DNA of 64,000 bases from Nannobrachium achirus (taxonomy: Eukaryota > Chordata > Actinopteri > Myctophiformes > Myctophidae): the NCBI GenBank assembly GCA_963921795.1, contig OY997639.1:47201310-47265309 (forward strand), written 5' to 3'. A program made the position numbers and the translations under genes. The notes beneath the pieces are model-generated. The model made no database searches. It saw nothing but the letters and a program-made list of their open reading frames with translations, and was not told the origin of the DNA. Shown here piece after piece: positions 2,781 through 64,000 of this stretch. Numbering within the stretch: position 1 is the first letter of the stretch; each line of letters opens with the position of its first letter.

Positions 2781-2831
2781 ATCTACAAGCACACAACGCC
2801 TCGCACCGCGAGGCGTTATGTGCTTGTAGAT
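2781..2831. repeat. Hairpin module A (24-bp arms)
   Basis: Arms 2781-2804 and 2808-2831 pair around the loop ACC, with one mismatch. The core reads ATCTACAAGCACACAACG. It is followed by TCTGCTGTTTTCACTACTTT, the same outer sequence as in the copy at 6845-6923. Confidence 0.9.
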
Positions 2832-2935
2832 CTGCTGTTTTCACTACTTTTGTGCGACAGCCTTTGCTAAAGAACATACAAATTATACAGAAGCACGATC
2901 ATTTAGTATTTTTTATTTATTTCTATCATATACAG

Positions 2936-3220
2936 GGCCCGTGGAGTCTGACTGGATGGAGGAAGGATGGAGAGGACAGTATGATGGCTGAGATGGCGAG
3001 AGCGGAGGAGTCAGGCATAGGTCATACACACTGTAGGTTCGCTGCCTGGACCAATGTCACTCTAGGGGAGCTGAAGAACTTTCTGGGACTTCTCTTCCTC
3101 ACAGCTATCGTTCACAAGGCGGAGATTGCCATGCACTGGTCAAAACCCTGTCATTGCATGCCGTACTTTCCCAGAACAATGGCAAGAAACAGGTACCAGG
3201 CCATTTTGAGGTACCTGAGG
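2936..3220 (+). pseudogene. piggyBac transposase fragment
   Basis: An open stretch of about 95 codons encodes FAAWTNVTLGELKNFLGLLF, then HWSKPCHCMPYFPRTMARNR and YQAILRYLR. The pattern W-x-(V/T)-T-x-x-E-L-K-x-F-L-G-L-L followed by a Trp-Ser and (F/Y)-(F/P)-x-x-M-x-R-x-R-(F/Y)-x-x-I-L-R-(F/Y)-L is that of the DDE_Tnp_1_7 (piggyBac) family. The reading frame runs into a (CA)n array, and the catalytic aspartates expected further on were not found. It is a broken remnant. Confidence 0.7.
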
Positions 3221-3222
3221 CG

Positions 3223-3331
3223 CACACACACACATACAACACACACACACACACACACACACACACACACACACACACACACACACACACACACACACAC
3301 ACACACACACACACACACACACACACACACG
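3223..3331. repeat. (CA)n microsatellite
   Basis: About 100 bp of nearly pure CA repeat. It cuts off the piggyBac transposase fragment. The reading frames through it are low-complexity artefacts. Confidence 0.98.
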
Positions 3332-4390
3332 GTGAACAGTACCATCTTTGACCTTTATTTGTGGTGCCTTTGACTCCTGAATGTTGGCTTGTTGAATGCC
3401 TTTTTTTGAGAATACAGTACAGTACAGTACTGACTTTTATATTATTTTATTTATTCTTTACTTGCTGCACATTTATTTTATTTTACTTTTATCCAGTTAT
3501 ATTTTATTTTTGTGAAGTCATATTTGTGATTTCTTTTTTTTTGGAAATATTTGTAAATATTGTTGAACATAAATATGTTCATGCTGGATGTGTGAGGTAC
3601 TCACCAGGGTTAGGGTTCGATGTTGCCATAAAATAAAAGGTTGACATCGCTTTTCTGACTTTTTGTCTTCCTGACCTTCTAGACCAGGTAAAAACACAGT
3701 GAATTCACAGTGCATAGTTCTATCAAAATGTAAGGCAATTTCTACCTTCTGAGTCATTTCATACTTTTTCACTTTGCCCCCTTGAAACTAGACGATGGTA
3801 CAATATTTTTTTTAACTTTTTTTGCACATAATGAAAGTAGGCATGTCATTCTTTCTGTCAAGGGTACTTGTGTTCCGTTACCATTTACCAATTTGTTGCT
3901 ATGGCTTCCTAAAGTTTTTTTTCTTTGAACTCAAATATCTCAGAATCTAGATTTCTGAGGTTATTGACTGGTTTGCGCAGTGCGCACTCTCGAGCACCTA
4001 TCTCCAAAACCGCTCACCGAAATCACTCCAAAAATTTTTTGGTAAAAAAAAAAATCCTCTTTTACCAAACCTCCCATTTTTGTTCCGATGTGAATATCGG
4101 ATCATTTCCAATTTATTCCCTGGAATTGGGGCAGAAATGAATGGGACCTAATGGTGGCACTGGTAAGGGACGGGGGGCAGGGGGGGCTGGCACTCAAAGT
4201 GTTAAAGGGACTACACCATGAATTTTCATTTTTCCAATTTTTATGTATTTTCTTGGTGTCCCACCAGCAACTTCTATCCTCACAAAGTCCTATTTCTGAC
4301 CATTGTGTCTTTCTCAGTTTATGGGCAGATCTATGTTAGCATGTCTCAGAACGGTCCTGATTGTGAAAGGTCAGATTTGTGATGTCACAA

Positions 4391-4494
4391 GGCCTGAGAA
4401 GGAGGCAGGAGGAGCTGGGAGAGGGTTGGGGAGGGGTGGGCAGGCCTGAGAAGGAGGCAGGAGGAGCTGGGAGAGGGTTGGGGAGGGGTGGGCA
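4391..4494. repeat. 52-bp perfect tandem duplication
   Basis: Two identical purine-rich 52-bp units start with GGCCTGAGAAGGAGGCAGGA at 4391 and 4443. The perfect match suggests a recent duplication. Confidence 0.9.
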
Positions 4495-60717: not shown

Positions 60718-61242
60718 ATATGGAGTAGGGCATTCACCAAATATTCGAATATTAGAATATTCGAATATCAAAGTCACTATTCGACGTTGTTCACCGAAGT
60801 CGAATATTCGCTTATTATTATTATTATTTTTTTTTTTTATTGTTTTCTCTTTAAAAAAATTATAGTTTATAAAGCTTGGCGAGATAGGAAGTCAGAAGAA
60901 TGAGTTGTCAATGCCCCTGGTGGATACATTTGTTAATGCTCTATACCAGGGGTTCTCAAACCACCCTGACAAGCACTTGGAATTGTAGGTATTACATTTA
61001 ATGTGACTCGGTTCCGCAGATAAATATTGTGAAAATAGCAGATCTACATGCTCACAACGCCTCGCAACGCGAGGCGTTGTGAGCATGTAGATCGTCTATT
61101 TTCACAATGTTCGCCTCTTGCTTACTTAATATTTGACAGTTTGGCCAGTCCTGTCGAATATTCGACTATTCGAATACTTTGAGTTTGCGGTCGAATAATT
61201 CGAATACTAAAAATCACTATTCGTGAATGTCCTAATATGGAG
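60718..61242. mobile_element. hAT-type MITE with perfect target duplication ATATGGAG
   Basis: The element 60726-61234 begins TAGGGCATTCACCAAATATT and ends TCGTGAATGTCCTA. ATATGGAG stands on both sides. It is rich in TATTCGAATA. Inside is a piece of another hAT MITE (about 60954-61145), which in turn carries a hairpin module A. Confidence 0.92.
61026..61108. repeat. Hairpin module A (40-bp arms)
   Basis: Arms 61026-61065 and 61069-61108 pair around the loop AAC with two or so mismatches. The core reads CTACATGCTC/GAGCATGTAG where most copies read CTACAAGCTC/GAGCTTGTAG. Confidence 0.96.
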
Positions 61243-61456
61243 ACCACTGGTACCCACTACCCATGTATGGAGATCTATGTACCGTATATGGTACATCCCT
61301 TTTATGCCCATACATGGATATCCCTGTCTGAATCAGACACACAGATATGGGCTGTCTTCCTCCATATATGGGCATTCCCATATGAAGTCCTGTTAGATAT
61401 GGGCTTAATATTGATGACATCAGGGATCTCCATATGTGGGCATAAAAGGGAGTCTG

Positions 61457-61953
61457 TTAAAGCTATACTATGTAACTTTTTTAATAAAACAAATCTTATA
61501 TTTGTCCTAATTATTAAATCGCTAAAGTTTTAGAACACCCACTCTGTTAATTTCAGCTCCCAAAGCCTTTTCTTTATATGTGTTCTACTGAGCCCTGGTG
61601 GCCGTGACCGGGGCTGTTTTTCCCGGCAAAATTACGTCATACGCATCATTCTGTACACGTGTCTCCCTACCGGCCAATCACAGCCCAGATCATACACTGC
61701 CGAGCTCTTCAGGAAGTACACTGCAGTGTTTACACTGGTCTGGGAGTTTAGCATGTAGCTCCCCAACCGCTGCTCGTAGAGGGACACGAAAGACCTCTAT
61801 GGAAGCGTATCGGCGAGGCGAGGCGGACGCGGTGCTGAAGGCCCGGTCCGCGGCGAAAAACGGCCGAAAAAAGGCCGAAAAAAGCAGACGCGACCGCGGT
61901 TTGCTATACTGCTACTGACCACTAGTTGAGCAACTTACACAGTATAGCTTTAA
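61457..61953. mobile_element. TTAA-flanked MITE with CpG-rich body
   Basis: TTAA lies at 61457-61460 and 61950-61953. Ends AGCTATACTATGTAA and TTACACAGTATAGCT are inverted. The interior at 61790-61905 is CpG-dense (GGCGAGGCGAGGCGGACGCG). A 106-codon open frame there has no recognised domain. Confidence 0.85.
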
Positions 61954-62769
61954 AGTGGTTCTCATGACATCACAACATACAATCCCTTTTATGCCCATAC
62001 ATGGAGATCCCTATCTGAACCAGCCACACAGATATGGGCCATGTCTTGGCCATCTGGCCAGTGATGTATATCGATGACATCAGGGATCTTCATATATGGG
62101 CATACAAGGGAAACTGGGGAATACCCATACAGTATATGGACTTTTACATAGGTGATATCACCTGTGATGTCACAGTGATGTGTCAGGGGAACCACAGTGT
62201 CAGGCGTGACCTTCAGAGATACACAGATACGTGGACAAGATGTGCCAGTTTTCGTAGTAACCATGCAACCGTCCGTATCTCTGTCATGTCTGACACTGTG
62301 GTTAGCCACTCTGACATCATGCTCTGACGTCACTGTGATGTCAGGGGAACCACTCTAACAGAATGGGTTTGCCTCTCTGACATCACACTCACTGTGATGT
62401 CAGGGGAACCACACTAACAGAATCGCTTTTATGCCTATACATGGAGATCCCTGATGTCATCAATATTAAGACCATATCTAACAGGACTTCATAGGGGAAT
62501 GCCCATATATGGAGGCCACATCGGCCACATACCACACTAACAGAATCCATATATGGCCAAGACAGCCCATTTCTGTGTGGCTGGTTCTACAGACGGGGAT
62601 CTCCATGTATGGGCATAAAAGGGATTGTAAGATCTCAGATGCCATAGACGTCATAGGACTTTCACATAACGAATAACTGAGTAAGCATGTTTGGGCTCTC
62701 ACAGCATATCTCCATATACAGTACATGAATCTCCATATATGGGTAACTGGTCCGATATACATCACTGGC

Positions 62770-63604
62770 CAGATGGCCAAGACATGGCGCAACCTCGTCC
62801 TTTAGGGTGAGGTCGCATGTTGCCCTGAGGCGTCATACTAGTAATATTTATTGCCATGGGAAGACATCAAATGTATCTTTTGTGTCTCTCGAGCTAAATA
62901 AATAAAATATAATCATCCATGTATAGTATGATTATAGTCTCATGAAAGTCCCATTTTTATGCATAATTGCTGCCCTTATGTTGAACCTACTTCATGCTGT
63001 CATTCCACTATCAAATGTTGTTGACGTCCTGCTGTGTTAATGTACTGTACTAATGTCTTAACAGCAGGACGTTTGGAGGAAAACATACTTCTTTCATTAT
63101 GACCAGGAGTTGTGCAGCATTATATTAAGTACTTATAGCCTATACTGAATATTGAGAACATCGCTGGAATGGTGTACAGTACACTACACTACATTATAGA
63201 AAGAATGACTTAAGATGTTCTATAAAGAATCAATACATCTACAGCATGCAATTCGTGTTCTTGATTTAAGCTTCATGAGACTATCCGTCACAAATTCCCA
63301 CCTTTATTATCTACACATAGTGACAATAACAAACATGATTTGGGTTTTATCTAAAAACCACAAAAACAAAAAGAGACATATACGACGTGGCTCCAAAATG
63401 GATCTGGATCTTCATATGTGGCCATCCTGTGGTGTTAGTCGTCTATGTATGTCATATCTGTGACATATTATGTGTCATATCATGACTCAAAACTTGGGCA
63501 TGGTTTCACTTTCAGCCCAATCAGAGCAAATAATTCAAAAAAGTATAATTACGGGAATACATTTGTGGAGGTACTTCTGTGACCTACTGGCAGTGTGCAC
63601 AAGT
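62770..63604. other. Intron sequence, nothing recognised
   Basis: 62806-62850 continues the CCATATATGG family (TGCCCTGAGGCGTCATACTA). The rest has no coding pattern. The next C2 exon of adcy2 was not found. Confidence 0.45.
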
Positions 63605-64000
63605 AGGGCTGTCATGATTATGACATTTTACATGACGATTAATTTTCTCTCAAATAATTGCGATTAACGATTTAATTGTGTTTTTGTCGTTGACAATTAC
63701 ATTTCTGTTTGGCTTTTAGGCGTTGAAGTTGCATATGGCAGATATGACACATAACCTAAATATACAAAGAAATTACTGACATATTTGACAACTTTATACT
63801 TAAAAAAATAACATTGATAGTGGAAATAGCCGATCTACAAGCTCACAACGCGTCGCGATGCGACGCGTTGTGAGCTTGTAGATCTGCTATTTCCACAATT
63901 TTTTTACTTAAAAAAAAATTAACATTTTTCAACATGGAAACGATTATGACGATTATGTCAAATAATTGCGATTAGACGATTATGTAATAATTGTGACAGG
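63605..64000. mobile_element. MITE cut by the window end, with hairpin module
   Basis: Starts TAGGGCTGTCATGATTATGA and contains TAATTGCGATTA blocks on both sides of a hairpin module A. The end at 63990 approaches TTGTGACAG, which would be the inverted terminus. Confidence 0.75.
63821..63895. repeat. Hairpin module A (36-bp arms, CGCGTCGC tip)
   Basis: Arms 63821-63856 and 63860-63895 pair around the loop GAT with one or two mismatches. The inner stem is CGCGTCGC/GCGACGCG. Confidence 0.96.

Follow-up and report, generated by a model that had tools for sequence, protein, structure and literature searches.

We analysed a stretch of 64,000 nucleotides from the myctophid fish Nannobrachium achirus (assembly GCA_963921795.1, contig OY997639.1, positions 47,201,310 to 47,265,309; hereafter the window), in which a short hairpin recurs inside transposons with different ends. 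This hairpin cassette, common to many transposon families, is real and very abundant. It is probably a passenger of about 76 bp, housed in about a dozen short, non-autonomous families of DNA transposons, whose arms and tip have been reworked by template switching.

Abundance of the hairpin in the window and in the genome

The core of the module, GATCTACAAGCTCACA, was sought in the window with up to three mismatches, using 100 dinucleotide shuffles as the null. It matched 35 times, against a shuffle mean of 0.58 and a maximum of 2, while the outer arm TGAAAATAGC, with one mismatch allowed, gave 36 matches against 6.8 expected. The outer arm is real but host-dependent, occurring as GTGAAAATAGC, GTGAAAACAGC, GTGGAAATAGC, TTGAAAATAGC, CCGAAAATAGC, TCAAAAATAGC and GCAAAAATAGC. 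When folded, the copies gave near-perfect hairpins of 75-77 nt with a 3-nt loop; that at 63820-63896 reached a folding energy of -44.5 kcal/mol (shuffles, -9.7), and the stem-loop z-scores ranged from -11.8 to -17.0 in six folded sequences, which represent five copies, one of them folded on both strands.

A covariance model trained on 12 window copies, run at E<=0.01, detected 13 separate hairpins in the window, 12 of which are the training set. All 11 positions that a first-pass annotation of this DNA had called clear copies lie inside these model hairpins, which together with the core matches bears out the recurrent module it had proposed. Its estimate of about 25 copies is approached when half or decayed copies (e.g. 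11303, 23179, 25930, 33911, 38332, 47092, 54884 and 59791) are added to the 13.

The same annotation had suggested searching this genome with such a model. We covered 288 kb, made up of the window, eight loci picked by the core and 20 loci of 10 kb at 20.0 Mb of contigs C1-C20 (loci beyond the window carry L-numbers), and obtained 71 distinct hairpins: 13 in the window, 9 in the core-picked loci and 49 in the sampled loci, 18 of which held at least one. Extrapolation from these fixed, non-random loci (49 hairpins per 188 kb after removal of 11,950 N) gives about 4.3x10^5 hairpins per genome. The exact core occurs 80,229 + 78,560 = 158,789 times in the assembly of 1,658,514,493 bases, against 0 copies of the reversed core; about 0.8 occurrences would be expected at equal base frequencies. 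A chance origin of the core repeats is thus ruled out by the shuffles in the window and by the zero reversed control in the genome. An exact 19-mer had no occurrence in the viral contigs; one viral and eight prokaryotic stretches fitted the two-armed pattern, none of them with GATC before CTACAAGC, and these were taken as chance matches.

The hosts are transposons with different ends

The host families were labelled alpha, beta, gamma, delta, epsilon, zeta, eta, theta, iota and kappa. About twelve types of host end were distinguished: ten hAT-like with 8-bp duplications, one with TA, and one cut by the end of the window. The ten hAT-like types have ends resembling CAGNG/TAGGG and duplications that are exact or one base off, as follows.

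zeta, ends CAGTGGTGGAAA: window 28178, 36984 and, weakly, 30096
epsilon, ends CAGGGGCGTCAC: window and L022
ends CAGGGGTGGGCAAC: window 43469
ends TAGGGCATTCACC: window 60726 and L023
ends CAGTGGTTCTCAA: L025
gamma, ends CAGGGGTCTTCAAC: L014
eta, ends CAGTGTTGTTTTTG: L026
theta, ends CAGTGGTTCCCAAA: L023
iota, ends TAGGGAYGGGACGA: L036
kappa, ends CAGGSACGTGCACA: L019

The hosts and hairpins of the window are these (strand given where one is assigned).

2768..2844: alpha hairpin, within a host fragment, with a decayed 5' outer arm
6766..7195: host alpha, ends TATCGTC../..GACGTTAT; built as a large palindrome, each arm of which has one hairpin
6846..6922: intact alpha hairpin, 77 nt, 3-nt loop ACC
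7047..7114: alpha hairpin with shortened tip
11046..11110: hairpin of host gamma (ends CAGGGGTCTTCAAC)
25930..25988: alpha hairpin, middle deleted
28178..28806: host zeta, CAGTGG.. ends, duplication TAAAATGG; hairpin 28413-28462
30096..30968: host zeta, duplication ATAGTTTC, weak ends (5 of 14 unlike); hairpin 30282-30363
31297..31799: host epsilon, CAGGGGCGTCAC ends, 8-bp duplication (1 of 8 unlike); hairpins 31393-31469 and 31651-31727
36984..37433: host zeta, duplication ACACCAAT/ACACCAGT; hairpin 37156-37210
37735..37799: decayed hairpin, no host assigned
43469..43977: host with ends CATACATGGGCAAC/CAGGGGTGGGCAAC (4 of 14 unlike), duplication CTGTATAC; hairpin 43807-43883, with two-sided changes of its own
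46160..46570: comparison element, gamma ends, exact duplication TTGTAGAG, other interior, no hairpin
47081..47119: gamma hairpin, one arm mostly deleted
52426..52700, minus strand: zeta copy, hairpin at the same site shortened and decayed
54884..54945: one-arm hairpin remnant
60726..61234: host TAGGGCATTCACC, duplication ATATGGAG; hairpin 61029-61105, accompanied by a captured fragment from a CAGTGGTTCTC-like element
63605..64000: host delta, with TAGGGCTGTCA end, truncated where the window stops; hairpin 63820-63896 with a single mismatch

The first-pass annotation had stressed that the hosts have different ends and that their common descent does not explain the shared hairpin, and with about twelve end types such descent indeed does not easily do so. 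Its description of single hosts held in part. The hAT miniature inverted-repeat transposable elements (MITEs) that it named after TTTACTT do carry the hairpin, but TTTACTT is internal to them and their ends are CAGTGG..; its TCGGG elements are likewise hosts, but they start near TATCGTC... These last are our alpha (ends TATCGTC..GTCGGG), which has TA on both sides in 5 of the 12 copies inspected by eye. In those 12 copies alpha does not show the 8-bp duplication and CAGNG/TAGGG ends of hAT MITEs; a TA-duplicating superfamily would fit.

Inverted ends with 8-bp duplications surrounded 17 of the 71 hairpins and, as a control, 3 of 71 random positions; some of the 17 are weak, and two are alpha elements lying inside a different hAT element. 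Strict scanning of 264 kb returned 16 hAT-like elements, eight of them with a hairpin, two of these eight (L021 and L033) only through a nested alpha. The flanks of 40 of the 49 sampled hairpins matched our host library (for eight of these the match is the library's own source locus) and nine matched nothing, while 19 of 100 control positions more than 600 bp from any hairpin matched it too. Clustering on 150-bp flanks lumped 61 of the 71 hairpins and was too coarse to separate hosts. Three further hairpins (L016, L017 and L035) lie in contexts that match no named host; that of L017 is centred in a longer palindrome of unnamed kind (L017:1452-1620, AAGGGCTATGACGTCACTGG..). The hosts at 6766-7195 and 31297-31799 are themselves large palindromes, each arm of which holds one hairpin, so that hairpins stand within a hairpin.

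The arms have been re-matched and the tip occurs in both orientations

Among the 12 window copies both members had changed at 15 of the 37 pairs (27 cells, against 10.3 in shuffles). We then compared 13 hairpins, one per host or context, leaving aside eta and theta, whose copies are shortened; four of the 13 (L016, L017, L049 and L062) were chosen for odd outer arms, which affects the pair-change counts. In this set two-sided changes occurred at 19 of 37 pairs and in 44 cells, compared with 7.4 pairs and 11.8 cells in shuffles and with 4-7 pairs and 5-13 cells in slid controls. The mean distance between the two arms of one hairpin was 0.110, against 0.227 for permuted partners (0 of 10,000 permutations), and among the nine hosts not chosen for odd arms it was 0.093 against 0.192 (again 0 of 10,000). 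For 19 of the 26 arms the nearest arm was the own partner, with four ties and three exceptions. Since own-arm resemblance exceeds resemblance across hosts, re-matching of the arms took place after the hosts had separated.

In alpha, counting loops in one host orientation with the 47 other bases exact, ACC occurs 4,710 times, GGT 2,390 times and GCT, the only intermediate counted, 53 times. Because GGT is the reverse complement of ACC and GCT is scarce, the tip was most likely flipped in place rather than changed by stepwise mutation. In beta and iota AAC and GTT are both found within one host orientation, in a handful of copies.

Matched arms might also arise by selection on an RNA hairpin, e.g. 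in a noncoding RNA, as has been argued for the Angel element in long noncoding RNAs of zebrafish, where compensatory changes in two copies were so interpreted (PMC3636048). In line with such selection, nine alpha copies stray less from their consensus in the hairpin (22/589 differences, 3.7%) than elsewhere in the element (107/1616, 6.6%; p=0.010), a difference that either correction or selection could give. We nevertheless regard this explanation as very improbable: one-sided pair changes of the G-U kind are few (9 one-sided cells in the 13-hairpin set, against the 44 two-sided), a flipped tip is not expected from a pairing constraint, and the window has no Rfam match above the gathering score. 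Matched arms together with a flipping tip are better explained by errors of DNA copying at the hairpin than by selection on RNA. Homogenised arms combined with an inverted spacer have been reported as marks of template switching at inverted repeats (PMC8604942, also PMC8794818).

The hairpin keeps its place in its hosts

Among the alignments listed for alpha, epsilon, gamma, iota, delta, eta and zeta, other copies of the host hold the hairpin at the same place, in full or shortened. Comparison with hairpin-free host copies and a look for target duplications, both put forward by the first-pass annotation, gave no recurrent sign of separate insertion in these hosts. Six short or empty-looking copies that span the site (zeta L010 and window 52426, delta L026, alpha L024 and L031, and iota L022) each keep a remnant of one or both arms, and in the aligned hosts we saw neither a recurrent duplication at the borders of the module nor recurrent insertion sites of the hairpin alone. 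In beta, a search for copies with 0-30 bases in place of the hairpin gave 439 sites, about 100 of which were listed; most of the listed sites show visible remnants of the hairpin, and several are joined at the same short junction (GGTTCTATT|TTCACAATTT, for instance, is seen five times), which is what deletions between short repeats should leave.

These observations bear on the possibility that the hairpin is a mobile element in its own right, a hyperparasite that inserts into transposons and at other sites. In its favour one can cite the dozen or so host end types, most of them with no common flank seen, the odd contexts of L016, L017 and L049 with other palindromic outer arms, a hairpin at L035 that stands between two exact 24-bp copies (3760-3783 and 3838-3861), which may be an insertion duplication or a local repeat, and tandem hairpins at two places. 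At the latter (L046 ~527-700 and L047 ~494-595) overlapping hairpins are joined at a common GATC, possibly the birth of a satellite from a hairpin. The constant place in seven aligned host families, the lack of a recurrent edge duplication and the partial deletions that make up most of the listed beta sites all speak against it, as does the finding that all ten hairpins of at least 80 bits in the sampled loci lie in hosts (five of them being self-matches of the library). Free mobility of the hairpin by itself is therefore not supported, and we hold it to be unlikely; since the place is kept, it was the transposition of the hosts that multiplied the hairpin. The first-pass annotation had left open whether the hairpin was mobile or spread by copying: a copying process did act, on arms and tip, but solo mobility finds no backing here.

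Passage between host families

The cassette may have entered each host by capture in the course of repair or replication, in some cases together with flanks. The beta hairpin occurs with like flanks in the CAGTGGTTCTC element of L025 and inside TAGGGCATTCACC elements (window 60726 and L023), where it is accompanied by part of a CAGTGGTTCTC-like element, so that more than 100 bp of flank moved along; this flanked passage is one between CAGTGGTTCTC and TAGGGC hosts. Gamma and iota are alike over the hairpin plus about 25 bp of flank. For the remaining pairs of hosts nothing but the hairpin was seen to be shared. The case that the first-pass annotation had named as fatal to its idea, a single transposon donating fragments to the others, applies in part, to the long flanks of beta and the short ones of gamma and iota. 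Twenty places, chosen among the listed matches of 415 hairpins with a one-sided departure in the outer arm, included known hosts with a deletion on one side, as well as a few hairpins with other outer arms on both sides (e.g. L049).

It might be, then, that one ancestral hAT element owned the hairpin, and that the other families are its descendants or recipients of larger captured fragments. In favour of this, hAT-like ends make up ten of the twelve or so types, beta moved with flanks, and gamma and iota share some; against it, the ends of alpha differ and have TA in the copies noted above. The element at 46160-46570, with gamma ends but a different, hairpin-free interior, likewise shows that these ends do not need the hairpin. 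A hAT dimerisation domain scored over the cut-off at all 150 places scored (of 1,653 candidates), and at least nine of the matches listed had frames of more than 500 aa; transposases for the hosts may therefore exist in the genome. Several long hAT-domain frames are nearly equal in length and score, which suggests recent hAT activity. We inspected eight such coding loci, L069-L073 being one family and L074-L076 others, with about 1.5 kb on each side of the domain, so that the ends may fall outside. Hairpins were present in L069 only, where both lie beyond the block common to L070-L073, and this too argues against ancestral ownership, which we consider rather unlikely.

The reading that we prefer remains a passenger cassette reworked by template switching. 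Transposition of the hosts multiplied the cassette at its constant place in the aligned families. Re-matched arms and a flipped tip would both result when a DNA polymerase, replicating the DNA or filling a gap, switches strands inside the hairpin. Similar strand switching, or the repair of excision gaps, may have carried the cassette across host families, sometimes with flanks, although this step is the weaker one, and founders that bore the hairpin would then have expanded. A stronger version, in which a selfish cassette spreads across unrelated transposon families by strand-switching copying of its own structure, has its arms re-made at each transfer and so helps new MITE families to arise, is put forward as a tentative possibility that we do not think the likelier one. 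If true, a vertebrate nucleus would harbour a parasite that lives on other parasites.

Several observations weigh against the passenger cassette as we describe it. The base adjoining GATC is often unlike between the arms (C in one, A in the other): this difference is kept in 27 of 59 usable hairpins (12 of the 71 were dropped for lack of two arms), and its orientation is, by eye, constant in unlike copies of alpha, beta and delta. Its survival implies that conversion does not span the whole stem or is rare, and the private changes within families, being mostly one-sided, likewise imply that re-matching is infrequent. The tip counts of alpha could be explained by one old flip and two bursts. 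No transfer from host to host was caught in progress at the loci examined. At least six of the listed beta sites lack a clear remnant; they differ from one another except for one joint, GGTTCTATTGTGAATTTC (..ATTGTGAATTT..), which was seen twice, could be an empty site and to that extent favours a mobile hairpin. On the inequality next to GATC the first-pass annotation was silent.

Other features of the window

Complex tandem arrays fill 38432-39881; some have TGCCCATATG units, and at 39470-39881 a unit of 206 bp occurs in two copies that are 100% identical. At 1070-1372 lies an 85-bp tandem repeat of 3.6 copies with 97% matches, GC-rich and perhaps coding. One short translation resembled a piece of a C-type-lectin-like protein in a structure-database search.

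Comparison with known systems

We found no description of the module in the open-licence literature, where six forms of the core string were also without occurrence. The nearest parallel is Angel of teleosts, a high-copy family of zebrafish with a stable stem-loop (PMC3636048), which a figure legend in PMC8151067 draws within Tol2. By these accounts the two are alike in high copy number, a stable inverted repeat, a place inside a hAT element and compensatory changes in the arms. The place inside hAT elements is found here in the ten hAT-like end types, the coding hAT loci that we examined being without a hairpin in their body. Unlike Angel, ours is a module of about 76 bp in about a dozen end types, the comparison being one of descriptions and not of sequence or length. 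With hAT MITEs the ten host types share the CAGNG/TAGGG-like ends and 8-bp duplications; in contrast to them, the hairpin is internal and common to families with different ends, one of which lacks hAT-like ends.

Mobile hairpins are described from mitochondria, namely the RHE of sponges (PMC2800124) and the GC clusters of yeast (PMC4478555). They are, like ours, short, many-copy and diversifying palindromes, and the yeast GC clusters merge and shuffle. Ours, however, is presumably nuclear, given contigs of 60-90 Mb, is carried in DNA transposons and was not seen to move alone.

Two-sided changes in arms are usually interpreted as the mark of a selected RNA, whereas here a DNA process can be counted directly in thousands of near-identical copies. 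Should the cassette move from one transposon family to another as well, it would have a bearing on the unsettled origin of MITE interiors. Template-switch mutations at inverted repeats (PMC8794818 and PMC8604942) show the same homogenised arms and inverted spacer; those studies dealt with coding genes of yeast and with RNA genes, while in this fish both orientations of the tip are seen among thousands of copies of a single hairpin.

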